DNA of 64,000 nt. It comes from Halichondria panicea. Taxonomy: Eukaryota > Porifera > Demospongiae > Suberitida > Halichondriidae. Below the pieces are notes generated by a model. It saw nothing but the letters and a program-made list of their open reading frames with translations. It was not told where the DNA came from and did no database searches. Of this stretch, positions 12,630 through 63,674 are shown one piece after another. Position numbers and translations under genes: made by a program. The stretch is taken from contig NC_087390.1 of NCBI RefSeq assembly GCF_963675165.1, positions 2,928,001 through 2,992,000 on the forward strand, in the 5' to 3' direction. How positions within the stretch are numbered: position 1 is the first letter of the stretch; the number at the start of each line of letters is the position of its first letter.

Positions 12630-14392
12630 ATGACTGAAAAGTTGCTTTCGATCTGTCTCTTGGTCATTGCAATAGTTTCATTGACCGTTGGACAACAAGG
12701 TAGACAATTAATGTGTTATAAAAACCGTATTTTATTGTCTGTACAGTTTACCTGACACTGGGATCTGGCCCTGTCATCACCACTGACAATACGAATATCC
12801 TCATTACTACCATTGGAGAGGATGCTCTGGGTGGTCTTCCTTCTCTCACCTGTCACACTGACCTCACTGGCTGCTGTAGAAGTAATGCTGACAACAATGG
12901 TAATGGAGGGCTGGGACAGTGGGCGTATCCTGATGGGAGTGTGATACTGGGCAATGGTTATGGACAGCAGTTCTACAGGATAAGGAATGCACCTCAGCTT
13001 ATCAGACTAAATCGTAGAGAATCTAACAATCCCCTCACTCCAACCGGGTCGTACTGTTGTACCGTACCAACTACTGGAGGAGAAATGACCCTTTGTGTCA
13101 ACCTGGGTAAGTGTGATGATCGTTAGATGATCGTTGTGTTAAATGGAATACGTCAATGCAGTTGTGTGCTTGTCCCTTCCTCCTCTGACTAATGGGATGC
13201 TCTCCTACTCTGACCAAACACAAGGTCAGGGCACTGTGGCTACTTACAGCTGTAACCATGGTCGCAATCTTGATGGAGACGCCACCAGGACTTGTGATAG
13301 TAATGGAGTATGGAGTGGATCAGTTCCAATCTGTCAATGTATGTTCCAGTTCATAGTATCATATAACTTAAGAGAGTCATGAACTACCCCCCCCCCCCAT
13401 GCATGCATGGCTACCATTATTCCAGTCACATGTTCTGATGATCTCCCGATCATTACCAATGGAGGCGTAACCTATGCTGGTGGGTCCACTAACAACAGAC
13501 CATTGGGTGCTACTGCTATGTACATCTGTTTCCGTCCCTACCGCCTGGTTGGAGTGTCAGTGAGGACCTGTGAAAGTAATGGAACCTGGAGCTCATCAAC
13601 AGCTCCGGTGTGTCAGCGTGAGTGGAATAGAGTGTGGACTATATGTGTTTTCAGGCTATTCCCTGCATGCATGCAGGTATAATATGCTCTGATTTATCCT
13701 TACCAACAAGCGGGATGATCACCTACAGTGATGGATCCACTAATAACAGACCAGTCAACAGCAGCGCTACACACAGCTGTAATGCTGGTTACACTCTCAC
13801 TGGAGGAGACACAAGGTTTTGTCTTCATGACGGGACCTGGAGTGAATCAGCTTCAGTGTGTCAGCGTAAGTGGAATAGAATATGGTTTATAATCATATTT
13901 GTTTAATTATAAAATGAACATGTACACAGCACAAACAATAATACAGCTAAAGTTTGGACCAACAAGTCATTGCCTCCACTGGAATGTAAGTTATTTTAAT
14001 CACTCAATATACCTATTGTGATAAGTTGGCAGGAAGGTAAAGCTGCAACCATAAGTGGAAACATGCGACAGACAATTTATGAAGTCATAGCAAGAAGCAA
14101 CAAAGACATCCCACTGGCCAATATCGATGGTGGTGTGTTCAGTTGCCGCACATCTCAAAACTACACAACATTCCGAACCACGATTGACGGAACAGCAAAT
14201 ACGAATTCATTGAGAGCAGCTGCCGTTATCCAGGAGTGGGTGGAGTCTGGACCTGTGATGAGGGTGGAGTGGTATCTGGTGGATGTTATCGGTGGCAAGT
14301 GCCCAGTTGTCATTGACTCCCTGAGTGAGGAAGAATGTATAGAGAACCAGTGTATGGAGAGTTGCTTGGCTGTGTGCAGGGCGAGGGGGTAG
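12630..14392 (+). CDS. Gene A: secreted Ig-like + 3 sushi protein (intact)
   Basis: Seven exons: 12630-12699, 12747-13106, 13162-13338, 13426-13617, 13677-13865, 13930-13985 and 14033-14392, giving 467 aa. The order is a signal peptide (MTEKLLSICLLVIAIVSLTVG), an Ig-like domain (residues about 24-143; LTCHTDLTGCC, GQWAYPDG, PTGSYCC in the place of the usual DxGxYxC), three sushi/CCP domains (about 144-202, 203-266, 267-329, each with four Cys and a GxW), and a 138-residue C-terminal domain (LKFGPTSHCLHW ... CPVVIDSLSEEEC) ending with paired Cys. There is no membrane anchor, so it should be secreted. Sushi and Ig domains bind proteins or glycans; adhesion or recognition is inference. All sushi exons are flanked by phase-1 introns. 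A is the first of seven tandem copies, and its upstream DNA differs from the spacer shared by B-G. Confidence 0.85.
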
Positions 14393-15074
14393 ACATAATA
14401 CTCATAGTGGGACTCAGCTTTATAGCTTTAATTAATGTGGAAAAAGATAACAACAGTGAACACTAAGTCTTACATACTATAGATGTATATAGATGTTAGT
14501 TTTGTGGACAAATTGTGTACAGCGTGCATATGTAGTGGTCTTTGATGAAAACTGTTTCGCCTACGTATCGGATATGAGTGAGCGGAGGGAGTGTGGCCTA
14601 ACCACACCCTAGCAACATAGTTATAAGACACGAAACTATGATTATATTATTTTTACAGGACAGTGCATGCATGATGTATACATGTATAGAAACAATGTTT
14701 TCTGCATACTTAACTTGTAGCTACATAATGAAAATTGTGAAGAACTAGCTCTGTCTGACCATAATTATATTGATATGATCAGACTATAATCAAGCAGGCT
14801 AAACCTTTATCCTTAAACAGACGTACATGTGTATGTAGTGTCTGTGAGTGCATGACGTACTGTATGTATAGGCTATATACATGTATAATTGTCTGTGCAT
14901 GTGTTTACATAGCTAATGGGTATCGCATTTCAGTTAAAAGCCCCATACTACAATTAATGTTACGCTAGATCTATGTATACTGTATGTGAACGTCATAAGG
15001 TGGTCATTTGCTGTCTCGATCCCATACGCTACAAAGCTTGCATTAATTTTGTTGTGTGTAAGTGCGTTGTAATT
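14393..15074. promoter_or_regulatory. Array spacer A-B (shared upstream block)
   Basis: Non-coding DNA repeated with little change before genes B, C, D, E and G. Markers are 'gcctacgtatcgg', 'gagtgagcggagggagtg', 'gtgagtgcatgacgtactg', 'catttcagttaaaagcccca' and 'acgctacaaagcttgcatta' just before the ATG. It must contain the 3' end of A and the promoter of B. The last roughly 200 bases before the ATG are best conserved between units, which points to promoter function (inference). Confidence 0.5.
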
Positions 15075-16851
15075 ATGCCTGGAAAGTTTCTATCTGTCTC
15101 TCTCTTGGTCACCACAGTAGTTCAGTTGGTCACTGGACAACAAAGATAATCCCAATGTGTATTGTTGCTATAAATTGTCACCTGATACAGTTTACCTGAC
15201 ACTGGGATCGGGTCCTCGTATCATTACGAACAATGTGGATATCCTCATCACTGACATTGGAGAGGATGCTGATGGTGGTCATCCTTCTCTCACCTGTCAC
15301 ACTGACCTCACTGTCTGCTGTAGAAGTGCTGCTGACAACAATGGTAATGGAGGACTGGGACAGTGGACGTATCCTGATGGGAATTTGATACTAGGCAATG
15401 GTGCCTCAGCGACTGCTGGACAGCAGTTCTACATTAACAGGAATGCACCTCAGCTCATCAGACTAGACCGTAGAGAAACTAATAACCTCTTCTCTCCAAC
15501 CGGATCTTACTGTTGTACTATACCAACTACTGGAGGAGAGATGACCCTCTGTGCCAACCTGGGTAAGTGTGTTGATCGTTATTTTAAATGGAATATGTCA
15601 ATGCAGTTGTGTGCTTGTCCCTTCCTCCTCTGACTAATGGGATGCTCTCCTACTCTGACTCAACACTGGGTGAGAACACTGTGGCCACCTACACCTGTAA
15701 CACTGGTGGCTACACCCTCAATGGAGGCAGCACCAGGACTTGTGGGAATGATGGAGTATGGAGTGGATCAGCTCCAACCTGTCAATGTATGTTCCAGTTC
15801 ATAGTATAATATAACTTAGGAGAGTCATGAACTACCCCCCCCCCCCCCATGCATGCATGGCTATCATTATTCCAGTCACATGTTCTGATGATCTCCCGAT
15901 CATTACCAATGGAGGCGTAACCTATGCTGGTGAGTCCACTAACAACAGACCATTGGGTGCTACTGCTATGTACATCTGTTTCCGTCCCTACCGCCTGGTT
16001 GGAGTGTCAGTGAGGACCTGTGAAAGTAATGGAACCTGGAGCTCATCAACAGCTCCGGTGTGTCAGCGTGAGTGGAATAGAGTGTGGACTATATGTGTTT
16101 TCAGGCTATTCCCTGCATGCATGCAGGTATAATATGCTCTGATTTATCCTTACCAACAAGCGGGATGATCACCTACAGTGATGGATCCACTAACAACAGA
16201 CCAGTCAACAGCAGCGCTACACACAGCTGTAATACTGGTTACACTCTCACTGGAGAAGACACAAGGTTTTGTCTTCATGACGGGACCTGGAGTGGATCAG
16301 CTTCAGTGTGTCAGCGTAAGTGGAATAGAATATGGTTTATATAATCATGAGTGTATCGTTATAAAATGAACATGCATGTACACAGCACAAACAATAATAC
16401 AGCTGAAGTTTGGACCAACAAGTCATTGCCTCCACTGGAATGTAAGTTATTTAAGTAGTCACTCGATATACCTATTGTGATAAGTTGGCAGGAGGGTAAA
16501 GCTGCAACCATAAGTGGAAACATGCGACAGGCAATCTATGAAGTCATAGCAAGAAGCAACAAAGACATCCCACTGGCCAATATCGATGGTGGTGTGTTCA
16601 GTTGCCGCACATCTCAAAACTACACAACATTCCGAACCACGATTGACGGAACAGCAAATACGAATTCATTGAAAGCAGCTGCCGTTATCCAGGAGTGGGT
16701 GGAGTCTGGACCTGTGGTGAGGGTGGAGTGGTATCTGGTGGATGTTATCGGTGGCAAGTGTCCAGTTGTCATTGACTCCCTGAGTGAGGAAGAATGTATA
16801 GAGAACCAGTGTGTGGAGAGTTGCTTGGCTGTGTGCAGGGCAAGGGGGTAG
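15075..16851 (+). CDS. Gene B: Ig-like + 3 sushi protein, exon 1 donor lost
   Basis: Exons by homology: 15075-15143 (signal peptide), 15191-15562 (Ig-like), 15607-15786, 15876-16067 and 16127-16315 (three sushi domains), 16386-16441 and 16492-16851 (C-terminal domain), all phase-compatible from the second exon on. The sister genes end exon 1 'caacaag|gtag', but B reads 'caacaaagataat': about three bases including the GT donor are missing, and the frame meets TAA at 15147-15149. Unless another donor or start is used, the signal peptide is cut off from the rest; an in-frame ATG at 15157 could give a cytosolic form. Every other domain is open and very close to gene A, including near-identical second and third sushi exons. 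It may be a very young pseudogene, or spliced in an unusual way. Confidence 0.6.
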
Positions 16852-17481
16852 ACATAATACTTAGTGGGACTAAGATTAATGTGAAAAGATAACAACAGTG
16901 AACACTATAAGTCTTACGTAGATTGTTAACTTTATGTTTTGTACAAATTGTGTACAGCATGCACATGTAGTGGTCTTTGACGAGAACTGTTCCGCCTACG
17001 TATCGGCAATGAGTGAGCGGAGGGAGTGCACGTGGCCTAACCACACCCTATAACAACATAATTATAAGAGACGAATTATTGTTTTTACAGGACAACAGGG
17101 ATGCATGTAGAAACAATGTTTTTTGCATACTTACTTACTTGCTACATAATGAAAATTGTGAATGTTAAAGAGACCATTGATTATGATCAGACTATAATTA
17201 TGATCAAGCAGGCTAAACCTTTATCCTTAAACAGACGTACATGTGTATGTAGTCTCTGTGAGTGCATGACGTACTGTATGTATATAGGCTATGTACATGT
17301 ATAATTGTCTGTGCATGTGTTTACATAGCTAATGGGTATTGCATTTCAGTTAAAAGTCCATACTACAATTAACGTTACGCTAGATCTATGTATACTGTAT
17401 GTGAACGTCATAAGGGGGTCATTTGCTGTCTCGATCCCATATGCTACAAAGCTTGCATTAATTTTGTCGTGTGCTGTAATT
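16852..17481. promoter_or_regulatory. Array spacer B-C
   Basis: 630 bp copy of the shared upstream block ('gcctacgtatcggcaatgag', 'gcatgacgtactgtatg', 'atgctacaaagcttgcatta'). No open gene. It presumably holds the promoter of unit C. Confidence 0.5.
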
Positions 17482-19526
17482 ATGCCTGGAAAGTTGATAT
17501 TTATCTCTCTATTGGTCACCACAATAGTTCAGTTGATCACTGGACAACAAGGTACATGTACATGTAGATAATCTCCATGTTACTATAAGTTGTCACCTGA
17601 TACAGTTTACCTGACACTGGGATCGGGTCTTCCTATCACTACGAACAATGTGGAGATCCTCATCACTGACATTGGAGAGGATGCTGTGGGTGGTCTTCCT
17701 TCTCTCACCTGTCACACTGACCTCACTACCTGCTGTAGAAGTGGTGACAACAATGGTAATGGAGGACTGGGACAGTGGACGTATTCTGATGGGAGTGTGT
17801 TACTGCAAAATGGTGGCTCAACGAATGTTGGAGATCAATTCTACGTTGTTAGGGGAGCACCTCAGCTTATCAGACTGCATCGTAGAGATTATAACAATCC
17901 CCTCACTCCAACCGGATCCTACTGTTGTACCGCACCAACTGACGGAGGAATAGAAAGGACCCTCTGTGTCAACCTGGGTAAGTGTGATAATCGTTATGTT
18001 AAATGGAATACGTCAATGCAGTTGTGTGCTTCCTCCACTGACTAATGGGATGCTCTCCTACTCCGACTCAACACTGGGTGAGAACACCGTGGCCACCTAC
18101 ATCTGTAACACTGGTGGCTACACCCTCAATGGAGGCAGCACTAGGACTTGTGGGAGTGATGGAGTATGGAGTGGATCAGCTCCAACCTGTCAATGTATGT
18201 TCCAGTTCAGAGTATCATATAACTTAGGAGAGCCATGAACTACCATGCATGCATGGCTACCATCATTCCAGTCACATGTTCTGATGATCTCCCGATCATT
18301 ACCAATGGAGGCATAACCTATGCTGGTGGGTCCACTAACAACAGACCATTGGGTGCTACTGCTATGTACATCTGTTTCCGTCCCTACCGCCTGGTTGGAT
18401 TGTCAATGAGGACTTGTGGTAGTGATGGAATGTGGAGCTCGTCAACAGCTCCAGTATGTCAGCGTGAGTGAAATAGAATGTGGACTACTGCATGTACCTA
18501 TATAGGCTATTCCCATGCATGCAGGTGTATGCTCTGATTTACCCGTACCAACAAACGGGATGATCACCTACAGTGATGGATCCACTAACAACAGACCAGT
18601 CGACACCAGTGCTACACACAGCTGTAATAATGGAACACTCTCTCTGGAGGGGATACAAGGTTCTGTCGTTATGGTGGGATCTGGAGCGGATCAGCTTCCG
18701 TGTGTCAACGTAAGTGAAAGCATTCATGCATGCACTCCTGGTATGGAGTATGATATCAACGTATCATTTTAAAATGAAGAAATGTGTACAGAACTTGATA
18801 AGCTTAACTATTATGGATTTGTTTTGCTCAGTGTGCCTGTCTCTCCCTCCTCTGACTAATGGGATGATCTCCTACTCTGACCAAACACAAGGTGAGGGCA
18901 CTGTGGCTACTTACAGCTGTAACCATGGTCACAATCTTGATGGAGACGCCACCAGGACTTGTGAGAGTAATGGAGTGTGGACTGGGTCAGAGTCAACTTG
19001 TCATCGTGAGCATTATTACCCTAAAATGAACAACTCATAATAAAATATTTACATACAGCACAAACAATAATACAGCTTAAGTTTGGACCAACAAGTCATT
19101 GCCTCAACTGGAATGTAAGTTATATAAGTACTCAGTGTACATAACTATAAATCCATAATTTTGCAGGAGGGTAAAGCTGCAACTATAAGTGGAAACCTGC
19201 GACAGACAGTCTACAAAGTTATAGCTAAAAACAGTGAAGGCATCTCATTGGCCAATATCGATGATGGTGTGTTCAGTTGCCGCACATCTCAAAAGTACAC
19301 AACATTCCGAACCACGATTGATGGAACAGCAAACTAATTCGTCAAGAGCAGCTGCCGTTATCCAGGAGTGGGGGTGGAGTCTGGACCTGTGATGAGGGTG
19401 GAGTGGTATCTGGTCAATGTTATCGGTGGCAAGTGCCCAGTTGTTATTGACTCCTTGAGTGAGGAAGAATGTATAGAGAACCAGTGTGTGGAGAGTTGCT
19501 TGGCTGTGTGCAGGGCGAGGGGGTAG
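17482..19526 (+). pseudogene. Gene C: Ig-like + 4 sushi copy with several lesions
   Basis: Signal exon 17482-17551 and Ig-like exon 17606-17977 are intact. The first sushi exon (18022-18194) lost 7 bases after 'gtgtgctt' and hits a stop. The second (18272-18463) is intact. The third (18525-18709) lacks one base at 'aatggaacactc' (sisters read 'aatggatatactc'). The fourth (18832-19005) is intact. C-terminal exons are 19059-19114 and 19167-19526; the latter lost two bases, giving TAA at 19335-19337, and gained two Gs some 35 bases later, which restores frame too late. Skipping both damaged sushi exons would keep frame, but the C-terminal stop would remain. It is most likely a recent pseudogene; assembly error is possible. 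Confidence 0.75.
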
Positions 19527-20158
19527 ACATAATAATTAGTGGGACTCAGCTTTATAGCTTTAATTAATAACAGTGAACACTAAGTCTTACGTACTATAGA
19601 TGGCTTAAATGTTTTGTGGACAAATTGTGTACAGCGTGCACATGTAGTGGTCTTTGACGAGAACTGTTCCGCCTATACGTATATCGGCAATGAGTGAGCG
19701 GAGGGAGTGTGGCCTAACCACACCCTAGCAACATAGTTATAAGAGACGAAAAACTATTGTTTTTACAGGACAGTGATGTAGAAACAATGTTTTCTGCATA
19801 CTTAACTTGTAGCTACATAATGAAAATTGTGAATATTATCAGACTATCGATTATGATCAGACTATGATCAACCAGGCTAAACCTTTATCCTTAAACAGAC
19901 GTACATGTGTATGTATGTAGTCTGTGTGAGTGCATGACGTACTGCATGTATAGACATGTATAATTGTCTGTGCATGTGTTTACATAGCTAATGGGGTTAT
20001 TCCTTATGCATTTCAGTTAAAAGCCCATGCTACAATAAACGTTACGCTATAGATCTATGTATACTGTATGTGAACGTCATAAGGTGGTCATTTGCTGTCT
20101 AGATCCCATACGCTACAAAGCTTGCATTAATTTTGTCGTGTGCAAGTACGTTGTAATT
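19527..20158. promoter_or_regulatory. Array spacer C-D
   Basis: 632 bp copy of the shared spacer, with the same marker words before the ATG of D ('acgctacaaagcttgcatta'). No gene. Presumed promoter of the intact gene D. Confidence 0.5.
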
Positions 20159-22030
20159 ATGCCTGGAAAGTTGCTATCTATCTCTCTCTTGGTCATCACA
20201 CTAGTTCAGTTGGTCACTGGACAACAAGGTAAACAATCTCTATGTGTAAATGTTGCTATAAATTATATTGTTCACCTGATACAGTTTACCTGACACTGGG
20301 ATCGGGTCCTCCTATCACTACGAACAATGTGGATATATCTATCACTGACATTGGAGAGGATGCTTTTAGTGATGGTCTTCCTTCTCTCACCTGTCACACT
20401 GACCTCACTACCTGCTGTAGAAGTGCTGCTGACAACAATGGTAATGGAGGACTGGGACAGTGGACGTATCCTGATGGGAGTGTGATACTGAACAGTGGTG
20501 CCTCAGCGTATGATGGACAGCACTTCTACATTAACAGGAATGCACCTCAGCTTATCAGACTGGCTCGTAGAGATTATAACAACCCTCTCACTCCAACCGG
20601 GTCCTACTGTTGTACCGTACCAACTACTGGAGGAGATATGACCCTCTGTGCCAACCTGGGTAAGTATGTTGATCGTTATGGTATACGTCCGTGCAGTTTT
20701 TTGCTTGTCCATCATAACTAAATTAAAAGCCATAAACTACGTACGGTACCCCCCATTTTTGCAGCTGGTCCAGCCACATGTTCTGACAATCTCCCCGACA
20801 TTTCTAATGGAGGCGTAACCTATGCTAGTGGGCTCACTAACAACAGACCAGTGGGTGCTACTGCCAGGTACAGCTGTTTTGGTCCCTACAGTCTTGTTGG
20901 AGTGTCAGTGAGGACCTGTCAGAGTGATGGAACCTGGAGCTCGTCACCAGCTCCAGTGTGTCAGCGTGAGTGAAATAGAATGTGGACTAGAGTCTACTGC
21001 ATGTACCTATATAAGCTATTCCCATGCATGCAGGTGTATGCTCTGATTTACCCTTACCAACAAATGGGATGGTCACCTACAGTGATGGATCCTTTAACTA
21101 CAGACCAGTTGGCACCAGTGCTACACACAGCTGTAATAATGGATATACTCTCTCTGGAGGAGACACAAGGTTCTGTCGTTATGGTGGGATCTGGAGTGAA
21201 TCAGCTTCAGTGTGTCAACGTAAGTGGAAGCATTCATGCATGCACTCCTGGTATGGAGTATGATATCATTCTATCCAATTGTTGAATGTATCATTTGAAA
21301 TGTGTACAGAACTTGCTATTATGGATTTGTTTTGCTCAGTGTGCCTGTCTCTCCCTCCTCTGACTAATGGGATGATCTCCTACTCTGACCAAGGTCAGGG
21401 CACTGTGGCTACTTATAGCTGTAACCATGGTCACAATCTTGATGGAGACGCCACCAGGACTTGTGAGAGTAATGGAGTGTGGACTGGGTCAGAGTCAACT
21501 TGTCACCGTGAGCATTATTACCCTAAAATGAACAACTCATAATAACTTATTTACGTACAGCACAAACAATAATACAGCTTAAGTTTGGACCAACAAGTCA
21601 TTGCCTTAACTGGAATGTAAGTTATATAAGTAATAATGCACTCAGTGTACATAACTATAAATCTTTGCAGGAGGGTAAAGCTGCAACTATAAGTGGAAAC
21701 CTGCGACAGATGGTCTACAAAGTTATAGCTAAAAACAGCGAAGGCATCTCATTGGCCAATATCGATGATGGTGTGTTCAGTTGCCGCACATCTCAAAACT
21801 ACACAATATTTCGAACCACAATTGACGGAACAGCAAATACGAATTCATCGAGAGCAGCTGCCGTTATCCAGGAGTGGGTGGAGTCTGGACCTGTGATGAG
21901 GGTGGAGTGGTATCTGGTAGATGTTATCAGTGGCAAGTGTCCAGTTGTCATTGACTCCTTGAGTGAGGAAGAATGTATAGAGAACCAGTGTGTGGAGAGT
22001 TGCTTGGCTGTGTGCAGGGCGAGGGGGTAG
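20159..22030 (+). CDS. Gene D: secreted Ig-like + 3 sushi protein (intact)
   Basis: Seven exons: 20159-20228, 20285-20659, 20765-20965, 21034-21219, 21340-21507, 21561-21616 and 21671-22030, giving 471 aa in one continuous frame. The signal peptide MPGKLLSISLLVITLVQLVTG ends before GQQ. The Ig-like domain has LTCHTDLTTCC, GQWTYPDG and PTGSYCC. Three sushi domains follow, equivalent to types 2, 3 and 4 of the array; the type 1 exon found in A, B, C and F is absent and its place is held by unrelated intron DNA. The C-terminal domain is of the same kind as in A but closer to that of C (NSEGISLANIDDGVF). The protein is presumably secreted. With A this is the only copy with no visible lesion. Confidence 0.86.
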
Positions 22031-22687
22031 ACATAATAATTAGTGGGACTCAGCTTTATAGCTTTAATTAATAACAGTGAACACTAAGTCTTACGTACTA
22101 TAGATGGCTTAAATGTTTTGTGGACAAATTGTGTACAGCGTGCACATGTAGTGGTCTTTGACGAAAACTGTTCCGCCTATACGTATCGGCAATGAGTGAG
22201 CGGAGGGAGTGTGGCCTAACCACACCCTAGCAACATAGTTATAGGAGACGAATTTATTATATTGTTTTTACAGGACAACAGTGATGCATGTAGAAAATGT
22301 TTTCTGCATACTTAACTTGTAGCTACATAATGAAAATTGTGAATGTTAAAGAACTCTATCAGACCATCGATTATGATCAGACTATAATCAACCAGGCTAA
22401 ACCTTTATCCTTAGACATACAGACGTACATGTGTATGTAGTCTATGTGAGTGCATGACGTACTGTATGTATAGGCTATATACATGTATAATTGTCTGTGC
22501 ATGTGTTTACATAGCTAATGGGGTCATTCCTATTGCATTTCAGTTAAAAAAGCCCATACTAAAATTAACGTTACGCTAGATCCATGTATATACTGTATGT
22601 GAACGTCATAAGTGGGTCATTTGCTGTCTCGATCCCATACGCTACAAAGCTTGCATTAATTTTGTCGTGTGCAAGTGCGTTGTAATT
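22031..22687. promoter_or_regulatory. Array spacer D-E
   Basis: 657 bp copy of the shared spacer, strongly similar to the C-D spacer. It retains the conserved block next to the gene although the downstream start codon is mutated to ACG. Confidence 0.45.
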
Positions 22688-23859
22688 ACGCCTGGAAAGT
22701 TTCTATCTCTCTCTCTCTTGGTCACCACAGTAGTTCAGTTGGTCACTGGACAACAAGGTAGATAATCCCAATATGTATTGTTGCTATAAATTGTCACCTG
22801 ATACAGTTTACCTGACACTGGGATCGGGTCCTCGTATCACTGCGAACAATGTGGATATCCTCATCACTGACATTGGAGAGGATGCTACTGGTGGACATCC
22901 TTCTCTCACCTGTCACACTGACCTCACTGTCTGCTGTAGAAGTGATGCTGACAACAATGGTAATGGAGGACTGGGAACAGTGGACTTATCCAAATGGGAA
23001 TTTGATACTATAGGCAATGGTGCCTCATATGCTGCTGGAGAGCAGTTCTACATTAACAGGAATGCACCTCAGGTCATCAGACTGCATCGTAGAGATTATA
23101 ACAACCCCCTCACTCCAACCGGGTCCTACTGTTGTACTGTACCAACTACTGGAGGAGAGACGACCCTTTGTGTCAATCTAGGTACTAATTGTGTCTGTTG
23201 ATCCCGATGTACATGCAACGACAATTCAATTATGCAGTGATTAAGTGTGTAACTCTCTCACTGACCAATGGGCCTACTCTGATCCCAGACTGGGTGAGGG
23301 CGCCGTGGCTACTCACAGCTACAACCATAACTACGTTCTGATTGGAGACACCACACGTACATGTCAGTTTGACAGCAGATGGACTTTGTCTGCCCCATAC
23401 TGTGCTGGTAAGGTATAACAATAATGCAAATTAATGCTACATTATTCACTCCACAGACCAAGCCTTGGTTCAGCTAAAGTTTGGACCAACAGACTACTGT
23501 TTACATTGGAGTGTGTGTTAGTGCATGTGTACGAATGAAAGAAGACAGTGCAAATCATGGTCTACCATTCTCCCATTATATGGGGACTTTCAAAGGTCAA
23601 TAAGAGAAGCAATGCGGAAAGCCATCCAAGAAGCTGTCTTAACCGAGGGAAACCAAACCTTTCCCCTGGAGCACATCTCGGAGGGAGTCTTCAGTTGCTA
23701 TGGCAGCAGAAACCACACCACCTACCGTGCCACCATCACAGGGACAGACAGGCTGAATGCTAACAAGGTTCTTTCTATGTCAACAAGTGGGTGGAGTCAA
23801 CAGTGCTGTCTCTATTCACAATTTTACTACAAGCTAGTAGATCTAGTACATTGAAAATC
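22688..23859 (+). pseudogene. Gene E: truncated Ig-like/sushi copy
   Basis: The start codon is changed to ACG (22688-22690; sisters have ATG CCT GGA AAG). The Ig-like exon 22807-23181 has one extra base ('gggaacagtgg') and two more about 35 bases later, so 12-13 residues are misread before the frame returns (GTVDLSKWEF in place of GQWTYPNG). A single sushi exon (23238-23407) lost 7 bases and one Cys. C-terminal pieces at 23457-23512 and about 23578-23800 are diverged (VFSCYGSRNHTTYRATITGT), frameshifted near 23776-23790 and cut short. The reading after the break runs straight into the ATG of F with no spacer, so the 3' end of E and a whole spacer were deleted. Nonfunctional as annotated. Confidence 0.75.
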
Positions 23860-25926
23860 ATGCCTGGAAAGTTGCTTTCTACCACTCTCTTGTTTACCAC
23901 AATAGTTCAATTGGCCACTGGACAACAAGGTATAATCCCAATGTGTAACTGATAATTATTGCTATAAATGTTATTGTCACTGATACAGTTAACCTGACTC
24001 TGGGATCTGGTCTTAACATCACTACTAACAATACTGAGATCCTCATCACTGGCATTGGCATTGGCATTGGAGAATATTTTGGAGGATATTATGGTTATCT
24101 TCCCTCTCTCACCTGTCACACTGACCTTGTGACCTGCTGTAGAAATAGTGACAACAATGGTAATGGGGGACTGGGACAGTGGACGTATCCTAATGGGGGT
24201 GTGATACTGCAAAATGGTGGCTCATTGAGTGCTGGACATCAATTCTACGTTGTAAGGGGAGCACCTCAGCTCATCAGACTAAATCGTAGAGATTATAACA
24301 ATCCCCTCACTCCAACCGGATCCTACTGTTGTACCGTACCAACTACTGGAGGAGTGATGACCCTATGTGCCAACCTGGGTAAGTGTGTTGATTGTTATTT
24401 TAATGGTATACGTCAATGCAGTTGTGTGCTTGTCCCTTCCTCCTCTGACTAATGGGATGCTCTCCTACTCTCTCAACACTGGGTGAGAACACCGTGGCCA
24501 CCTACACCTGTAACACTGGTGGCTACACCCTCAATGGAGGCAGCACCAGGACTTGTAGGAGTGATGGAGTATGGAGTGGATCAGCTCCAACCTGTCAATG
24601 TATGTTCCAGTTCATATAACATAATTATAACTTAGGAAAGCCATGAACTACTCCCCCCCCATGCATGCATGGCTACCACCATTCCAGTCACATGTTCTGA
24701 TGATCTCCCGATCATTACCAATGGAGGCATAACCTATGCTAGTGGGTCCACTAACAACAGACCAGTGGGTGCTACTGCCACGTACGACTGTTTTGGTCCC
24801 TACAGTCTTGTTGGAGTGTCAGTGAGGACCTGTCGGACTGATGGAACCTGGAGCTCGTCACCAGCTCCAGTGTGTCAGCGTGAGTGAAATAGAATGTGGA
24901 CTACTGCATGTACCTATATAAGCTATTCCCGTGCATGCAGGTGTATGCTCTGATTTACCCTTACCAACAAACGGGATGATCACCTACAGTGATGGATCCT
25001 TTAACTACAGACCAGTCGGCACCAGTGCTACACACAGCTGTAATAATGTATACACTCTCTCTGGAGGGGACACAAGGTTCTGTCTTTATGGTGGGATCTG
25101 GAACGGATCAGCTTCCGTGTGTCAACGTAAGTGAAAGCATTCATGCACTCTTGGTATGGAGTATGATATCATTCTTATCATTTTAAAATGAAGAAATGTA
25201 CAGAACTTGATAAGCTGGATTTGTTTTGCTCAGTGTGCCTGTCTCTCCCTTCTCTGACTAATGGGATGATCTCCTACTCTGACCAAACACAAGGTGAGGG
25301 CACGGTGGCTACTTACAGCTGTAACCATGGTCACAATCTTGATGGAGACGCCACTAGGACTTGTGAGAGTAATGGAGTGTGGACTGGGTCAGAGTCAAGT
25401 TGTCATCGTGAGCATTATTACCCTAAAATGAACAACTCATAATAAATTATTTAAATACAGCACAAACAATAATACAGCTGAAGTTTGGACCAACAAGCCA
25501 TTGCCTCCACTGGAATGTAAGTTATTTAAGTAATCACTCAATATACCTATTGTGATAAGTTGGCAGGAAGGTAAAGCTGCAACCATAAGTGGAAACATGC
25601 GACAGACAATTTATGAAGTCATAGCAAGAAGCAACAAAGACATCCCACTTGCCAATATCGATGGTGGTGTGTTCAGTTGCCGCACGTCTCAAAACTACAC
25701 AACATTCCGAACCACAATTGACGGAACAGCAAATACGAATTCATCGAGAGCAGCTGCCGTTATCCAGGAGTGGGTGGAGTCTGGACCTGTGATGAGAGTG
25801 GAGTGGTATCTGGTCGATGTTATCGGTGGCAAGTGTCCAGTTGTCATTGACTCCTTGAGTGAGGAAGAATGTATAGAGAACCAGTGTGTGGAGAGTTGCT
25901 TGGCTGTGTGCAGGGCGAGGGGGTAG
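23860..25926 (+). CDS. Gene F: Ig-like + 3-4 sushi protein, first sushi exon frameshifted
   Basis: Exons: 23860-23929 (signal peptide MPGKLLSTTLLFTTIVQLATG), 23989-24378 (Ig-like, with an extra GIGIGIGEYFGGYYG stretch), 24422-24599 (sushi 1), 24688-24879, 24941-25126 and 25234-25407 (sushi 2-4), 25461-25516 and 25567-25926 (C-terminal domain). Sushi 1 lacks two bases ('tactctctcaac'; sister B reads 'tactctgactcaac') and would stop at TGA. Because this exon has phase-1 borders on both sides, skipping it gives a clean 475-residue protein with the same domain order as D. The gene begins directly after the broken end of E without the usual spacer, so its promoter situation is odd. Confidence 0.68.
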
Positions 25927-26591
25927 ACATGCATAATAATTAGTGGGACTAAGCTTTATAGCTTTAGATAACAACAGTTAACACTAAGTCTTACGTAGAT
26001 GTATATAGATGATAACTTTATGTTTGTACAAATTGTGTACAGCGTGCACATGTAGTGTCTTTGACGAGAACTGTTCCGCCTATACGTATATCGACAATGA
26101 GTGAGCGGAGGGAGTGTGGCCTAACCATACCCTAGCAACATAGTTATAAGACACGAAACTATGATTATATTATTTTTACAGGACAGTGCATGCATGATGT
26201 ATACATGTATAGAAACAATGTTTTCTGCATACTTAACTTGTAGCTACATAATGAAAATTGTGAAGAACTAGCTCTATCTGACCATGATTATATTGATATG
26301 ATCAGACTATAATCAAGCAGGCTAAACCTTTATCCTTAGACAGACGTACATGTGTATGTATGTAGTCTGTGTGAGTGCATGACGTACTGTATGTATAGGC
26401 TATATACATGTATAATTGTCTGTGCATGTGTTTACATAGCTAATGGGTATCGCATTTCAGTTAAAAGCCCATACTACAATAAACGTTACGCTAGATCTAT
26501 ATGTGAACACATAAGGTGGTCATTTTGCTGTCTCGATCCCATACGCTACAAAGCTTGCATTGATTTTGTTGTGTGCAAGTACGTTGTAATT
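25927..26591. promoter_or_regulatory. Array spacer F-G
   Basis: 665 bp copy of the shared spacer with the same markers, closest to the A-B spacer ('acaggacagtgcatgcatga'). No gene. Confidence 0.45.
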
Positions 26592-28414
26592 ATGCTCATC
26601 ACACTGGTCACTGGACAACAAGGTAGATAATCCCAATGTGTAATGTATTGTTGCTATAAATTGTCACCTGATACAGTTTACTTGACATTGGGATCAGGTC
26701 CTCCTATCACTGCTAACAATACTGAGATCCTCATCACTGCATGGCATTGGAGAGGATGCTGATGGTGGTCTTCCCTCTCTCACCTGTCACACTGACCTTA
26801 TGGCCTGCTGTATATAGAAGTGGTGCTGACAACAATGGTATGGGATCACTGGGACAGTGGATGTATCCTGATGGGAGTGTGATACTGGGAAATGGTGCCT
26901 CAGAAGTTGCTGGACAGCAGTTCTACATGATAAAGAATGCACCTCAGCTTGTCAGGCTAAAGCGTAGAGAGACTACCAACCCCCTCACTCCAACCGGGTC
27001 CTACTGTTGTACTGTACCAACTACTGGAGGAGTGGAGATAACTCTCTGTGCTAACCTGGGTAAGTGTGATGATTGTTAACATGGTATACGTTCGTGCAGT
27101 TTTGTGCCTTTCCTCGCTCCCCCCACCAATATTATATAGGGTGATTTCCTACGTATACTCTGACCCAACACTGACTGGGTGAAGGCACTGTGACCACCCA
27201 CAGCTGTAACCGTGGTTACACACTCAATGGAGGCGCCACTAGAATTTGTGGGAGTGATGGATTGTGGTGTTCAGTATCATAACAAAGAACCATAAACCAT
27301 AAGTGCCAACCTCCAAAGAAAAATTTCCAGGACAAAAAAGTTGAGGGGGTTTAGCCCCATTTTTAGTGACACTTGAGGAGATTTATTACCTGAGGCCGTG
27401 CCGCGGCCAGCGGATATAATAGTGTGACATGTGAGTCTACTCACCTGGATGACATAGCACTGCATTTACAGCTTGGATAGCCCTCACACAACAAGTTATT
27501 AGTTTTAATAGTGGCAGCTTTTGATGTTAAAGGCTCGCTGTGGAATAAAAGCGGAGCAAAAGCTAAGAAGCACATGTTACACACAAACAAACTACTATAC
27601 CCGCTGGCCGCGGGTAATAAATCTCCATAAGTTAGTGTCACTACAGCGTAATTTAACTGTATGGTTTGCTGTGACATGTAGCTGTGTGCCTGTCCCTCCC
27701 TCTTCTGACTAATGGGATGATCTCATACTCCGACCCTCCTACACTGGGCGAGAAAACTGTAGCCACCTACAGCTGTAACCGTGGTTACACACTAATTGGG
27801 GACAGCGCCAGGACTTGCGGGAATAATGGATTGTGGACTGGGTCAGAGCCAACTTGTTTTTGTAAGCATTATACCCTAATTAAGTGAACTCAAACACAAT
27901 CACCTTATACCATGCAGCAGCACCAACAATAATACAGCTGAACTTTGGACCAACAAGTCATTGCCTCCACTGGAATGTAAGCTATGATATTGATGTATAA
28001 TCCTCAATTATTAATGTATCATGCCTAATTTTTGCAGGAGGGTAAAGCTGCAACCATAAGTGGTAACCTGCGACAGACAATCTATAAAGTCATATAGCTA
28101 GAAGCAGCGAAGACATCCCATTGGCCAATATCGATATAATATGATGGTGTGTTTAGTTGCCGCATGCACACCTCAAAACTACACAACATTTCGAACCAAA
28201 ATTGACGGAACAGTGCACACGACTTCCTCGAGAGCAGCTGCCGTTGTCCAGGAATGGGTGGAGTCTGGACCTGTGATGAGGGTGGAGTGGTATCTGGTCG
28301 ATGTTATCGGTGGCAAGTGTCCAGTTGTCATTGACTCCATGAGTGAGAAAGAATGTCTGGAGGACCATGCAGTGTGTGGAGAGTTGCTTGGCTGAGTGCA
28401 GGGCGAGGGGGTAA
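26592..28414 (+). pseudogene. Gene G: decayed last copy, interrupted by a transposon
   Basis: The signal exon (26592-26622) is shortened to MLITLVTGQQ, too short to direct secretion. The Ig-like exon (26677-27059) carries two 4-base insertions ('gcat', 'tata') that break frame, though the 3' two thirds still reads GQWMYPDG...PTGSYCC. A degraded sushi exon lies at about 27091-27270. A transposon (27365-27642) follows, then an intact sushi exon (27682-27861; CNRGYTLIG). C-terminal exons are 27921-27976 and 28038 onward; the second has an insertion that gives an in-frame TAG and further small indels. A polyadenylation-like 'aataaa' occurs at 28479. It is clearly a pseudogene and marks the right end of the array. 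Confidence 0.8.
27365..27642. mobile_element. MITE inserted in pseudogene G
   Basis: About 278 bp with inverted ends: left 'agtgacact' ... 'ggagatttattacc' ... 'ccgcggccagcgg', right 'ccgctggccgcgggtaataa' ... 'atctcc' ... 'agtgtcact'. The interior has no frame. It lies between the degraded and the intact sushi exons of G. A diverged relative of its left half lies at 9126-9300. Confidence 0.7.
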
Positions 28415-28648: not shown

Positions 28649-31600
28649 TTACGGTGATGTGAAGAAGTAGCTAGGTTTGTCCTCCAGTTGTTTCTTCTGT
28701 TTGTCAGAGAATCTTGCCAGAGCTGCAATGACCGTCACCAAGTGCTGGGTCTGTCTTCCCATCATGTACTCAAACAACACGTTCTTGAAATACTGTGTAT
28801 GTTATGTGGGGGGAGAGGGGGGGGTAATTGAACTGATGAAATCACGGTAAGGTGCAGGTTTAATCAATTGATATCCCACATGTACTTTGACTTTAAGATG
28901 AAATCTATGAAACGTTCAGCAGCTCCATTGTTAATCCGGCCACCCTTGGGACAGTGCAGCTTGGCTAGAATAGCGAGGTGGCTGCATTTCAGAAAATAGC
29001 CACGGCTAAAAAGCGGTCCCCACCTCGAATCTAATGATTAATTTTGCGGTTCTGTCTCGAGGCTAATGAATTATTTTGCTTCCAAATCACACCCACAACG
29101 TCATATTCGGTTGTACTGTATTAAGGTATCTAAAAACCTAGTTTGGGGCAGCCAGTATACGGAATAGCGAGTGGCCGCATTTCAGGGCGAGTTTTGTGTA
29201 GTATACATCTAGCTACAAACCAAATGGCCGGTATAATTATCGTGGGGGCCGTACTTCAGAGAGCCGGAATAGTGAGAGTCTACAGTGGGCCTTAGGAATA
29301 GTGAGAGTCTACAATGGGCCTTAGGAATAGTGAGTCTACAGTGGGCCTTAGGAATAGTGAGAGTCTACAGTGGGCCTTAGGAGTAGTGATAGTCTACAGT
29401 GGGCCTTAGGAATAGTGAGAGTCTACAGTGGGCCTTAGGAATAGTGAGAGTCTACAGTGGGCCTTAGGAATAGTGAGTCTACAGTGGGCCTTAGGAATAG
29501 TGAGAGTCTACAGTGGGCCTTAGGAATAGTGAGAGTCTACAGTGGGCCTTAGGAATAGTGAGAGTCTACAGTGGGCCTTAGGAATAGTGAGTCTACAGTG
29601 GGCCTTAGGAATAGTGAGTCTACAGTGGGCCTTAGGAATAGTGAGAGTCTACAGTGGGCCTTAGGAATAGTGAGAGTCTACAGTGGGCCTTAACTGCTCG
29701 TTGTGAATATTCTGAAAAACATTTTTTTTTATAAAACTGCAAAGCCTATAAACACCTGCTGTTCCCTGTTCCCAGGCAGTCACCCATCTCCTACATTGTA
29801 CAATACAGCTACCAACTTTATGTACATCTACATACACTCACCTCAAACTCGGCTCCGTGAGGCTCTTGTTCCAACACAATATCCTTGGAGGGCGTATCTG
29901 GGGGTGATGAGGGTCGGGTGGGTGTGACCATTCCCCGTGTGGGTGTGGTCATTGTACTAGAACGCTGTAGTGTTTGGTTCTCCCTCAGCAGTTGTTCCCT
30001 CGTGTCCTCGCTGCTCCTCAGGGCTTGCTTGTACTCCTTCACCATACTCTCCAGTCTGGGGAGCAAAGTCACATGACAATCAATGAAATGTACGCCCAAT
30101 TTACGCCTAATAATTTACAGCAATTACTACTGTTTTTGTACTTCACATGCTCGCTCACCTTGTGATGTTTGATTTCTGACCAGACAGTTTCTCTCTCTCA
30201 TCCTCCAGTATCTGTAATCGCCCAACCAGCTCCTGTTTCTCAACCTCGTGTTGTTGCTGTAGTGACTCCAAGCCCGTCCCCTTTGACGTATGCTCAACTA
30301 TCTCTTGCTGATGCTGCGAGCGAATAGCATCCACTTCGACTCTGTGACTGTCTTGTAACGCAAGAAGATGTTTCTCCAACTTAGAGAACTTGTCTTCTTC
30401 TCCTAACAATCTGTCCTTGGCTTCTTGTAGCTCAGAGCGAGATGAATTCAGTACCCTCTTCAAGTCGGCAATCTCAAACGAATATCGTTCTTCCACGTTT
30501 CTGAGTTCTTGCTCATGTTGCTTAGCGACTGAGACTCCCTGTGTTGACAGCTGTGCTTTCTCGACTGAGTACTTCTGTTCTAGTTCCAGTTGCAGCTCTA
30601 GGAGGCGAGAATCGAAGCTTGAACTGTTTTCCTGCAGATTATAATAATACATTGCACTACAGCTTTTCTGTCAGTACATTCGCCATGACAACAGTGTTAC
30701 AAAAGCTTGTACTGTGAATATATATATACACATGCATGTACACATACAGATTGCACTATAGCTATAGTTAAATACACGTCTGACTCAGCAATGTAGACTT
30801 ATGGAACCATCCTTACCTGAAGCTTCTCTTCACACTGCTTCTTCATGGCTACCAATTTAGACTCAGCCTTTTTCTTCACCTCTGCCATCTTCTTCTCACA
30901 CTGCTCCTGTGTTTGAGATAGCTGTGCCTCCAGCTGGCTAACTCGACTAAGTGTGGTGTCCCTCTCTTTGTCTCTGTCTGTCATACTCTGCTCATTACTC
31001 GACCGTAACACCTCGTGCTGACTCTGCAGATCTGACAGCTGCTGTTGTAGAGCTGTAATCTCTGATAGTCGTTGTTTTAGTGCGTCCATTTCTGAGAGTT
31101 GCTGCTTCAGCTGTTCCTGCGTCTGAGACAGCTGTGCCTCCAGCTGGCTAACTCGATCAAGCGCGTTGTCCCTTTCTCTGTTCCTGTCCGTCATACTCTG
31201 CTCATTGCTCGATTGTAACACCTCGTGCTGACTCTGCAGATCTGACAGCTGCTGTTGTAGAGCTGTCATCTCTGATAGTTGTTGCTTTAGTGTGTCCATT
31301 TCTGAGAATTGCTGCTTCAGTTCGGCTAACTTGCTGCTAAGGGTAACATTTTCTTGTATTAGTCGCTGGTGCTCCACGTTAGAGGACACAAGGAGCTCTT
31401 CTAGTTTGGTCTTCCACTCCTCTTCTGTCTCGTTGGCCATTTTTTTGGCTTGTCTGACATCAAGCTTCAGTCTCTTGACAACTTCTTTGTGTTTAACTTC
31501 CACTTCTTCTAGAGTAGCTGTTCGCTCAGTAGTCGCTTGAGTTAGTGATTCTTGAAGCTTGTCTTTCTCTAGTGAGAGGGCAGTGACTTGCTCATTCTTA

Positions 31601-34600
31601 GCCTGTAGCTCAGATTGTAGATTAGACGACAGCAGCTGCAGTTCTTGTAACGAGGTATCGAGGACAGACTTTGCTTGCAGGGATTGCTCAAGCTGAGAAG
31701 AAAGAGATTGTTTTTCATCAGCTAATTCAGTTTCTTTGTTTTCCATAGTCACCCTCAAAGATGTGACTTCAATAGAGCTTGCTTCTTTCAGTGAGGTGAT
31801 ATCCTGCTCTTTGACAGTGAGTAGGTCTTGTAAAGTAGCCATTTTGTCCACTAAAGACAGTTTCTCTTCAGATAATTCGCTAACTTTCTTAGCCAGTTGA
31901 GTTGTCTCATCTTGTAGTCCAGTGCGACTGCTCTCCCCCTCGCTCTCAAGTGATGCTATTTTCTCTCTGAGCTCAGTTTCTTTAGCTTCAAGTTGAGTGG
32001 TAAACTGTCTCTTCAAAGACGCTAACTTTGTTTCAGCTCGCTTCTTCAATTCCAATCTCTTTGTTTCCGCCGTAGCTTCAAACGTCGACATTTTCTTTAA
32101 CAAGCTCTTTAATTCTTCATCCTTTGCTGACAGTGTGCCCTCAAGGCGCTTGACCTCTAGCTGTTGCTCTTGCAGCTGCATCGTGAGAGTTTCAATTTGT
32201 CCGTTGCTTTGTGTAAATTTCTCCTCCAGCTGAGTGACCTTTGAACCCACCTCTCGGTCAAGTTGTGACACCATATCTGCTTGATGCTTCTCTTCCAAGG
32301 CTTGTAACTTGGACGCCTGCACTTGCTTCAGCTGTTGCAACTTCTCCTGGTAAGTTTTCTTGAGGCTAGCAAATGAGTTCAATTTCTCTTCGTGTAAAGT
32401 TTTCAGTTGGGAGTGATTTTCTTGCTCTTCTTTGAGAGAAGTGGTCAGTTCATCAATTTCCCGTTTGTGTGTTGCTTGTAACGATTGAGTAGCCTCAGAA
32501 TGCTCCGATGTCACTTTAGCTAGCTCTTCTTGGTGAGTATTTTGAATTGCTAGCAATTGTCCCTCTTTGTGTTCCAAAGTTGAGTTGATTCGTTCGATTT
32601 CTTCACTGTGAGCTACTTTGAGAGCCTCCATTGCAGTTGTGTGTTCTTGAGTGAGTTTAACGACTGTTTCGTCAGAGCTGCTCATGCTACATTGCAGTTG
32701 TGATTCTTTCTCCTCCAAAACGGACGAAAGACGACTAATCTCTTCATCTAGTTTGTTGTTTAGTGCCTCGAAAGCTGCCGTATGTTCTGCTTTTAGAGTA
32801 GTCACGGTCTCGTTGAGATTAGCCTGGAGTGTTTGCAGTTCATCATCCCTCTCGGCAAGTAGGCTAGTGAGACGGTCGATTTCCACTCTGCGATCTGATT
32901 GGATAGATTCTAGAGCTGTAGAGTGCTCCTGTGTTAGTTTAGCGATTGATTCTTTGTGATTGCCCTCGAGCGATTGAATAGTTATCTCACGATCTTCTTT
33001 GGCTGAGGTCAGCTGATCTTTCTGTGATGATAGCTGATCTTGCAGTTTAGATAAAGTTTCTTTGTGTTTCGATTTCATGTCTTTGACAATCCCACTGTAC
33101 TTGGTTTTAAGAGTGGCCAATTCTTGGTCGTGTTTCTTCGCTACCTCTTTTGTTGAACTTGAGCTATCCTGCATTAGTTGAGAGCTCTTCTGTTGCTCAC
33201 TGTCTAGGGAGTCTCTAAGCAACGCCAGCTGCTCTTCGTAGTCTTGTTTTAACGAGTCTTGTTCGGACATATGCAAATGTTTGAGCTCTTCAAGTACTTT
33301 AGAATGAGAGGCTTCAAACCTTTGCTGCTTGGTAGTTAATGCAGTTTGGTGGTCCAATTTCAGCTGATCAATTTTAGCAGTTTTGGATTTAATTTTACGC
33401 TCCAATTGAGCAATCTGCGTCTCTTTCTCCGATAGTGTAGCAGAGAGTGACTGATTTTGAGCACTTATCTTTTCCCTCATCTTGTTAACTTCTTCACCGG
33501 CTGTCTTCTTTGTTGCCTCCACTGTCACTTGGCTCTCCTCAGAAAGTCGTCTCAACTCTATATCTTTCTCAGCGAGAGTGCTTTGCAAATGTTCCATTTC
33601 TTGTTGGTGAGCAATTTCAGATGTTTTTGCTTTTTCCTCGAGACAAGCCATTTTTTCATTAAATTCTTCAATCTCAGTCTTGAATTGGTGCTCGCCTTGT
33701 CGGAGTTTTTCAATGTTTTTCATATGAATTTCGTCCATTTCCTGCTGGTGTGCAGTGACAGTTGTAGCCTGGAGTGATTCAAGCTTAGCAATCTCACCCT
33801 CTAGTTGGGTACACTTATCTTGCAGCTGCTGTGAGGCTTCCCGCGAGTTTGTCAGCTGCTCTCGGAGGTCGTTTGTGACTTGTGTTAGCTGTTGATTCTT
33901 ACCAGACGCCAGAGCCTCTAACTCGGCTTTTAGACCATCGAGAGTTTCTTTGTGCTCTGATTTGGTAGACTCCATTTTTGAGGCTAGTTCATCTTTCTCT
34001 TTTAACACTTCTTGGTAGCCAGAGTTCAACTTTTCAAGCTCCAATACTGCACCTTCTTGTTGCGATCTCATTTCCTTCATCTTAGAATCTGTATCTACTC
34101 TCATTTTTTCCACCTGTTCTTCATGTTTTTTGACTTCTGCTTCACGCTCTTCAATCACTGAACCTAATGCATCTTTATGTTTATCGATCTGTTCTTGCAG
34201 TTTCAAATTGTGTTCACTCTCAAGTTGAGTTCTGAGTGTCTCCATGGCAGCGGAATGTGCCAGCTGTAGCTCGGACATCTTGTCCTGCCATTCTGCGGCC
34301 AATCTCTCACTGTCTGCACCGCCCTCCCCCCTTAATCTCGTGACCTCCTCTGCGTGAGCGGTCCTCAAAGATTCTAGTTCAGATTGATGACTGTTTCTTA
34401 TCGAATCAAGTTCTCCTTCGTGGGTAGTTTTCCAAGTCTCTAATTCACTATGATGTGTGCTTTTCAATGTCTCTAGTTCATTCTGGTAGGTACCTTGAAG
34501 TGCTTCTAGTTCTTCTTTACGATCCTTTGCTAACGTTTCCATATCTTGTTTGTGGGTAGCTGTCAATGCGTCAAGATCACCTTGGTGTGTGGTTCTTAGC

Positions 34601-35292
34601 GTCTCCGTGTCTCCTCTATGAGTGCCGTGTGCCGACTCTAATTGGTTCTCATGGGTACGTTGCAATGTCTCTATTTCTTGCCGATGAGTGGCCGTCAATG
34701 TATCCAGCTGGCTCTGGAAATCAGTCTTAACATCGGTCACGGTCTGTTCATTGGTTGCTGTTAGTTTCTCAAGCTCCGCCTCTCTAGCCTGCAATAGTTC
34801 ATTTGTTTCTTGAACTTTCTTTTCTAGTTTATCTTTCGTTTCTTGAGTAGTTTTCAACTGTTCCCTGAACTGTAAAGCTTTTGTCTTCATTTTGTCGAGC
34901 ATGGTGGAGAGCTGGGTCACCTTCTCTTGCTGTTGGCTCATCTCTACTTGGTGAGTTTCTATCATCGTCTCTTTGCTCTTGGCTTCTTTGGCAACGTCTG
35001 TTTCTTTCTGCGAGAGAGTTTCGTCTCTTTCTTGCATTGTCTTTTGTAGACTGGATACCGTTTCCTTGGAAACTTCAATTTCTTTCATTAGTTCCACTAT
35101 TTTAGTTTGGAGATCGGAGTTTTGGTTTCGTAATTGACTAACAATTGTTGTATGTTTAGTACTGAGTTCTTTAAGTTTTGCCGATAGTGTGGCCTCCTTT
35201 GAAGTGGGTGTGGTTTCTTCTTGACTGGGTGTGGCTTCGGATTTGGTTGGAGTGGAAGATTGTTTCATTTCATTTTCCGATAGTGTCTGTGC

Positions 35293-35345
<53 letters not shown>

Positions 35346-35346
35346 C

Positions 35347-35387
<41 letters not shown>

Positions 35388-63474: not shown

Positions 63475-63674
63475 NNNNNNNNNNNNNNNNNNNNNNNNNN
63501 NNNNNNNNNNNNNNNNNNNNNNNNNNNNNNNNNNNNNNNNNNNNNNNNNNNNNNNNNNNNNNNNNNNNNNNNNNNNNNNNNNNNNNNNNNNNNNNNNNNN
63601 NNNNNNNNNNNNNNNNNNNNNNNNNNNNNNNNNNNNNNNNNNNNNNNNNNNNNNNNNNNNNNNNNNNNNNNNNN
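63475..63674. other. Assembly gap (200 N)
   Basis: Exactly 200 N, a usual placeholder size, so the true distance is unknown. Reading frames that cross it are meaningless. Confidence 0.99.

Follow-up and report, generated by a model that had tools for sequence, protein, structure and literature searches.

The genes behind self/non-self discrimination in sponges are an open question. In Botryllus, the FcoR proteins are built from a signal peptide, a variable immunoglobulin (Ig) domain, sushi, two C2 Ig domains, a transmembrane (TM) segment and a tail with tyrosine motifs. They are encoded at 53 loci, form a large clustered type I family, and their tail can hold core Y-x-x-I/L/V motifs (PMC12065747, accessible text). 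The proposed ligand of the FcoR system, fuhc-sec, is a secreted protein with a signal, an Ig domain and two EGF domains, and according to the same 2025 review, as far as its accessible text goes, sponges, cnidarians and ascidians do not share conserved candidate allorecognition proteins (PMC12065747). A study of the graft response in Amphimedon infers a polymorphic genetic system, and the words immunoglobulin, sushi, receptor and Ig-like are absent from its text (PMC5450542). An Ig-like/sushi gene family in the sponge Halichondria panicea bears on this question. The window analysed, 64,000 bases of contig C14 (NC_087390.1, positions 2928001-2992000) from one assembly of 131.5 Mb in 39 contigs, contains a tandem array of these genes. 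The array is best explained as a local soluble offshoot of a very large family of Ig-like/sushi receptors with its bulk on a different chromosome (contig C4), a reading drawn from DNA comparison and given about an even chance of being right.

The array comprises seven units, A to G, head-to-tail on the + strand at window positions 12630-28413, and 166 bases of the Ig-like exon are found in seven copies (repeat family D7). Unit A (12630-14392) is intact. It has seven exons with GT/AG at all junctions, introns of 47-87 bases and a frame of 467 amino acids with no internal stop: a signal exon (12630-12699), an Ig-like exon (12747-13106), sushi 1 (13162-13338), sushi 2 (13426-13617), sushi 3 (13677-13865) and two exons for a C-terminal domain (13930-13985 and 14033-14392). 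Exon models of units B to G were rebuilt by homology to unit A. Unit D (20159-22030) is also intact, its seven exons (20159-20228, 20285-20659, 20774-20965, 21034-21219, 21340-21507, 21561-21616 and 21671-22030) having canonical GT/AG at all junctions and giving a complete frame of 468 amino acids with the Ig-like domain, sushi types su2, su3 and su4, and the C-terminal domain. The Pfam Sushi model (PF00084, cut-off 20.7 bits) matched three stretches in each protein, with 90.5 bits (9e-26) for A and 92.4 bits (2.3e-26) for D, the scan having used a hand-joined model of D that exceeds the final one by three residues. Both kinds of exon, Ig-like and sushi, are phase-1 at either end, thus gain, loss or skipping of such an exon keeps the frame.

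The Ig-like exon of unit A has many relatives elsewhere in the genome. Among the best 150 of 304 candidates scored, at least 132 lie on C4, at least 10 on C1, 7 in this array and at least 1 on C5. A stretch of 30 kb on C4 (1.115-1.145 Mb) was read. All seven complete units in it run from an Ig-like exon through sushi exons to a TM exon and a tail exon, and six of the seven have a second Ig-like exon before the TM exon. An eighth TM exon with its tail belongs to a unit that starts outside the stretch. The tail exon matches at 42 places across the genome (39 on C4, 1 on C5 and 2 on C1) and carries the tyrosine motifs YETV, YEEI and YSTV (YLTV in one case). The canonical immunoreceptor tyrosine-based inhibition motif (ITIM) is [SIVL]xYxx[IVL] and the corresponding activation motif (ITAM) is defined by spacing. 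Neither was seen in canonical form in the C4 tail by eye; residue -2 is A for YETV and YEEI and N for YSTV, and YETV and YEEI are only three residues apart, which is not the spacing of an ITAM.

A second kind of C4 locus ends in phosphatase domains. Locus L076 (C4:425001-432500) contains an Ig-like frame, eight sushi-like frames (by eye), a second Ig-like frame, a TM frame, an I-set domain and two protein tyrosine phosphatase (PTP) domains, with Pfam values of 4.6e-11 for I-set and 2.4e-28, 3.7e-20, 6.7e-14 and 4.2e-06 for PTP. The phosphatase matches listed are mostly on C4, with dense clusters of exons at 0.33-0.77, 1.27-1.38, 2.09-2.33 and 2.58-2.61 Mb. The same Ig-like exon thus appears to head C4 TM receptors which bear either conserved tails with tyrosine motifs or PTP domains, the joins between exons being read from the DNA. 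Some members of the C4 family look wired to tyrosine signalling, and the C4 members are likely recognition receptors. As a separate observation, the I-set of L076 lies between the TM frame and the phosphatase exons and would apparently be a cytoplasmic Ig domain, if the locus is one gene.

The C4 copies were also paired with putative effectors. Each of the 65 C4 Ig-like copies with at least 60% identity was matched to the first element found downstream of it on its own strand, provided that this lay no more than 15 kb away and that no further copy intervened. The tail was assigned to 23 copies, phosphatase to 13 and the C-terminal domain to 6. The 42 pairings observed compare with 3/65 when strands were swapped and with a mean of 4.7 and a maximum of 20 in 1000 circular shifts. 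None of the tyrosine-kinase matches listed (129 of 1749 candidates scored) fell within 15 kb downstream of a C4 Ig-like copy (0/65), and the C4 kinase matches among those scored are mostly at 2.5-2.8 Mb. Two pairs of C4 Ig-like copies (C4:195422/235898 and 198586/239061) lie ∼40.5 kb apart with near-equal scores, and this repeat represents either a segment duplicated recently or a second haplotype that was left unmerged.

The origin of the array was examined with a tree of 32 Ig-like exons, 27 of them from C4 and C5 loci (best matches or lying in fetched stretches) and 5 from the window, two exons of the second type being excluded. The copies from the window group together in a single clade (support 0.956). 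On the simplest reading of the tree, a single dispersal event reached C14 and duplication then took place locally.

Secretion was assessed using the maximum Kyte-Doolittle score over 19 residues. The signal exons reach 2.11 in A and 1.82 in D, and the 1.12 of F is weak. No TM segment was found in A, D or the F model, nothing past the signal exceeding 1.6. No open reading frame (ORF) above 1.9 occurs in the gaps between A and B and between F and G. Each of the gaps that follow B, C, D and G has a single ORF of 2.0-2.3, and except for the one past G these ORFs fall within the repeated sequence upstream of the next unit. Since the window frame stops directly after the C-terminal domain, the protein should be released, and the window proteins are probably secreted. 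The relatives of the C-terminal domain show both arrangements. The nearest ones outside the array are nine matches on C4 at 3.10-3.48 Mb with 36-46% identity. The ORF stops at, or at most one residue from, an ECE or ECV in 7/7 of the near C4 relatives with the frame end read (L015, L016, L017, L018, L020 and those in L072 and L073), therefore these look secreted too, barring an extra spliced exon. At 27-30% identity, four of the ten distant loci read (L032, L036, L037 and L038) have the C-terminal domain followed by a TM helix in one ORF.

The remaining units are in various states of decay. Unit B (15075-16851) is predicted to be inactive, with its domain exons all open and the GT donor of the signal exon lost. 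Unit C (17482-19526) has sushi types su1 to su4 and is broken by a 7-base gap in su1, an su3 of 188 nucleotides and a stop in the C-terminal exon. Unit E (22688-23773) is a pseudogene in which the start codon reads ACG, the sushi is decayed and the C-terminal part is divergent and truncated. In unit F (23860-25926) the su1 exon (24422-24601) is frameshifted by a 2-base gap and the other exons are open; without the su1 exon an in-phase open message of 475 amino acids, of the D type, would result. Unit G (26592-28413) is likewise a pseudogene: its signal exon is shortened, it has many stops, and extra sequence is inserted at ∼27280-27650. Two units are therefore intact (A, D), one is plausible (F) and four are broken (B, C, E, G). 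The idea of seven working genes was rejected on this count, only A and D being clearly intact. Assembly duplication of one gene was also rejected because the copies are 9-26% divergent and do not all have the same exons.

Identity between units is mosaic. By blastn it ranges from 74 to 91%, the longest match covering 3758 columns. Units A and B are 99.5% identical in su2 and 97.9% in su3, and their Ig-like exons are 83.6% identical. An alignment of A, B, C, D and F, with E and G left out, has 462 variable sites in 2083 ungapped columns, and the longest runs of identical variable sites were compared with 2000 column shuffles. A p value of 0.0005 was obtained for A/B (13485-13740), A/F (13976-14114), C/D and C/F and 0.001 for D/F, the remaining five of the ten pairs giving 0.0035 to 0.04; these values overstate conversion because column shuffling ignores regional differences in constraint. 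The stretches of high identity span introns and exons alike. Sushi 1 of unit A is itself a chimera of su1 and su4. In three 30-base windows at 13220-13309 it agrees with each su4 copy at 28 or 29 positions and with each su1 copy at 20-24. Its flanks are su1-type (against B, 25/26 and 30/30 before the tract and 28/30 after it), and the 30 bases at 13190-13219 are compatible with su1 and su4 alike, giving an approximate gene-conversion tract at 13215-13310 (+). Mosaic identity and the chimeric sushi 1 support gene conversion among the units.

These results agree in part with the original prediction, which was made from the sequence of the window. It had described seven head-to-tail copies over ∼15.8 kb that differ in sushi content and in degree of decay, and had suggested recent duplication, gene conversion and a birth-and-death pattern. 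The seven + strand units with their repeated Ig-like piece, the mosaic of near-identical su2 and su3 in A and B with the chimeric sushi 1, and the mixture of intact, plausible and broken units bear this out, as do the sushi sets, which are su1-su3 in A and B, su2-su4 in D and su1-su4 in C and F. It had also stated that all copies share a signal peptide, an Ig-like domain, sushi domains and one C-terminal domain. This plan is traceable in A, B, C, D and F but not in the decayed E and G.

Selection was measured as the ratio of nonsynonymous to synonymous differences per site (pN/pS), a comparison between copies that had been proposed with the original prediction. Pooled values for the window are 0.73 for the Ig-like exon, 0.61 for su2, 0.57 for su3, 0.23 for su4 and 0.30 for the C-terminal exon, so that pooled values are below 1 throughout. 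Single pairs reach 1.43 (Ig-like, C-D, where C is a broken unit). For A and D the value is 0.52 over 363 common codons, with a bootstrap interval of 0.38-0.73 and a fraction of 0.0005 of 2000 bootstraps reaching 1, therefore the intact pair is constrained, the Ig-like exon least. In the C4 cluster at 1.12-1.145 Mb, the Ig-like exon has 0.89 (6 exons) versus 0.25 for the tail (8 exons). The variable Ig-like columns are clustered (A positions 8-9, 18, 21, 27, 46, 54, 68-78 and 88-92), much as in a binding surface.

The same values bear on two alternatives. The array could be a relic in decay, derived from the C4 family by dispersed duplication, that is being lost and has no current role, as the broken B, C, E and G and the partly broken F would suggest. 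However, A and D are intact, and the constraint on this pair and on the C-terminal exon makes a relic quite unlikely. Alternatively the proteins could be structural, as secreted adhesion components of a matrix, with copy variation arising merely from the tandem array. Matrix proteins commonly contain sushi and Ig modules, and a pooled pN/pS below 1 would be in keeping with such a role. Their kinship to receptors with conserved signalling tails and phosphatases, and the faster evolution of the Ig-like exon relative to the tail, argue the other way, and a structural function is considered improbable.

If the array is indeed a soluble offshoot of the C4 receptor family, its working could be as follows. 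The N-terminal Ig-like domain would be the fast-changing tip, probably binding ligand, and the phase-1 sushi exons would form a stalk open to lengthening, shortening and swapping. The constrained C-terminal domain would in some distant relatives sit directly outside the membrane, and in the window its position at the end of the frame would release the protein. A, D and possibly F would then be secreted recognition proteins for microbial or self ligands, and the soluble proteins might opsonise, act as ligand, or act on the membrane receptors of their family, either competing with them or feeding them. An immunity or allorecognition role for the family is what we infer from this arrangement.

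Two narrower forms of this explanation, whose probabilities overlap with it, were considered. The first is humoral recognition of pathogens only, by complement-like secreted proteins that coat microbes and have no part in self/non-self discrimination. The lack of a TM segment, the richness in sushi domains and an Ig-like exon that is the least constrained fit it, and sushi and Ig genes of Aplysina aerophoba shift expression with microbial patterns according to the accessible text of PMC6208332. Many relatives, however, are membrane-bound and have tyrosine tails or PTP domains, and this would fit cell-cell recognition at least equally well. A purely humoral role is possible, though it is not what we would expect. 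The second, by analogy with what is proposed for fuhc-sec and the FF/FcoR pairs in Botryllus, is that the array makes secreted polymorphic self-labels read by the C4 receptors. The plan is the same in both animals, a secreted Ig protein plus type I Ig/sushi receptors with tyrosine motifs (PMC12065747, accessible text), but fuhc-sec carries EGF domains and no strict ITIM or ITAM was seen by eye in the C4 tail. Array and receptors are also on different contigs, therefore ligand and receptor would be unlinked. Such a ligand role is rated as decidedly unlikely.

A wider possibility concerns C4 itself. It could be a polymorphic self/non-self system in which one fast-changing Ig/sushi ectodomain is mounted, in different genes, on tyrosine-motif tails or on receptor tyrosine phosphatases. 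The same ligands would then yield opposing signals, and the window array would serve as the soluble arm of the system. This is a doubtful proposition at present. The family nevertheless forms a defined, testable set, in which a single ectodomain occurs with two candidate kinds of signalling output and also in soluble form.

Several observations weigh against the array being a soluble offshoot of recognition receptors. The label Ig-like rests on hallmark residues (C36, W59, G101, Y103 and C104, invariant in 9/9 aligned family sequences) and the Ig fold is a putative one. No Pfam Ig model matched the window Ig-like exon, weak I-set matches occurred in 2/9 aligned family sequences (best 0.066), and a profile search of the PDB with this exon gave four weak matches (best E 0.091), none of them Ig. 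Structure prediction, which had been put forward with the original prediction as a check, yielded low-confidence AlphaFold2 models both for the Ig-like exon (6 window sequences, mean predicted local distance difference test score, pLDDT, 42.7) and for the C-terminal exon (5 sequences, pLDDT 42.6), thus no claim of fold is made for either. The C-terminal domain had no Pfam match, SEA included, in the window proteins or three relatives, though the order of its predicted helices and strands is compatible with a SEA domain. A pattern search for relatives gave 129 hits in bacterial/archaeal contigs and 34 in viral ones, none of which was confirmed. No TM segment was found in the same ORF at six of the ten distant loci read (L024, L025, L026, L027, L030 and L035), L035 having a hydrophobic ORF ∼1.2 kb downstream of the C-terminal domain. 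In the array, the gap after D contains a hydrophobic ORF of 2.32, in the upstream region of E.

On C4, 23/65 Ig-like copies were left without an assigned effector, and one stretch read from this group (0.18 Mb) has an Ig-like exon and many sushi exons with no clear TM frame among frames of at least 55 codons. Pairing in the upstream direction gave 36/65 (19 tail, 12 phosphatase and 5 C-terminal), as expected of head-to-tail arrays, therefore the counts indicate a common strand and cluster and the order of elements rests on the stretches read. In none of the pooled sets is pN/pS above 1, and relaxed constraint could equally raise the values. Only two copies, A and D, are clearly intact. The whole reading comes from the DNA of one assembly, with gene joins deduced from it. 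The original prediction had regarded the array as a candidate recognition system. Such a role is made more plausible by the C4 receptors with tyrosine tails or PTP domains and by the fast Ig-like exon, but the window array would be a side branch with two clearly intact genes and not the system itself.

A minisatellite with units of 27-29 bases (29237-29721) lies just downstream of the array, and an open frame of 1399 codons at 4683-8879 (+) has no Pfam match at 0.01. The other neighbours look ordinary: a long coiled-coil-like frame at 30802-35460 (-) has weak Pfam matches only, a CDK5 activator is encoded at 45820-46830 (-; Pfam 3.5e-48) and a weak match to myosin head (7e-4, below its cut-off) is at 59571-59807 (-). 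An assembly gap of 200 N occupies 63475-63674. Elsewhere in the genome, long arrays of I-set exons with many identical scores occur on C1 (6.38-6.44 Mb) and C5 (1.99-2.08 Mb), and C10 has a tandem array of tyrosine-kinase-like single-frame matches (1.70-1.94 Mb). Cathepsin L-like sequences have 77 genome matches; the three ORFs read all retain the catalytic Cys, therefore none of these three is a silicatein. For COX1, one short piece with two TGA was found on C1.

Comparison with known systems, made from the accessible text of the sources, begins with the large sponge repertoires of Sushi/SRCR and Ig-TIR genes, which are partly sushi-bearing (PMC8242945, PMC6208332). The SRCR, NACHT or TIR domains of such repertoires are absent from the window proteins and the L076 frames, to which the Pfam scan was limited. 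The present Ig-like/sushi family is described in no title or abstract opening within the literature searched, which covered few subscription papers. The Alr genes of Hydractinia are a clustered Ig superfamily of 41 genes (PMC11999971) with ITAM/ITIM-type motifs reported on candidates (PMC12065747). By description they differ from the window genes in that sushi is not mentioned in the accessible text and the window genes appear secreted. Fuhc-sec resembles the window proteins in being secreted, in having a signal and an Ig domain, and in belonging to a recognition system (PMC12065747), but it has two EGF domains in place of sushi and the C-terminal domain. Its gene also shares a locus with those of its proposed receptors, while the window array and the C4 receptors lie on different contigs. 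The closest described design is that of FcoR. The window genes, lacking TM segment and tail, are not type I receptors of this kind. The C4 units read have a domain order like that of FcoR/fester, the comparison being one of design and not of sequence, but they have several sushi, one second Ig-like exon, tandem PTP domains in some cases and no strict ITIM. Likeness of design would not amount to membership of the Botryllus family. If C4 does prove to be a self/non-self system, it would stand beside the systems of Botryllus and Hydractinia as an independent and far larger counterpart.

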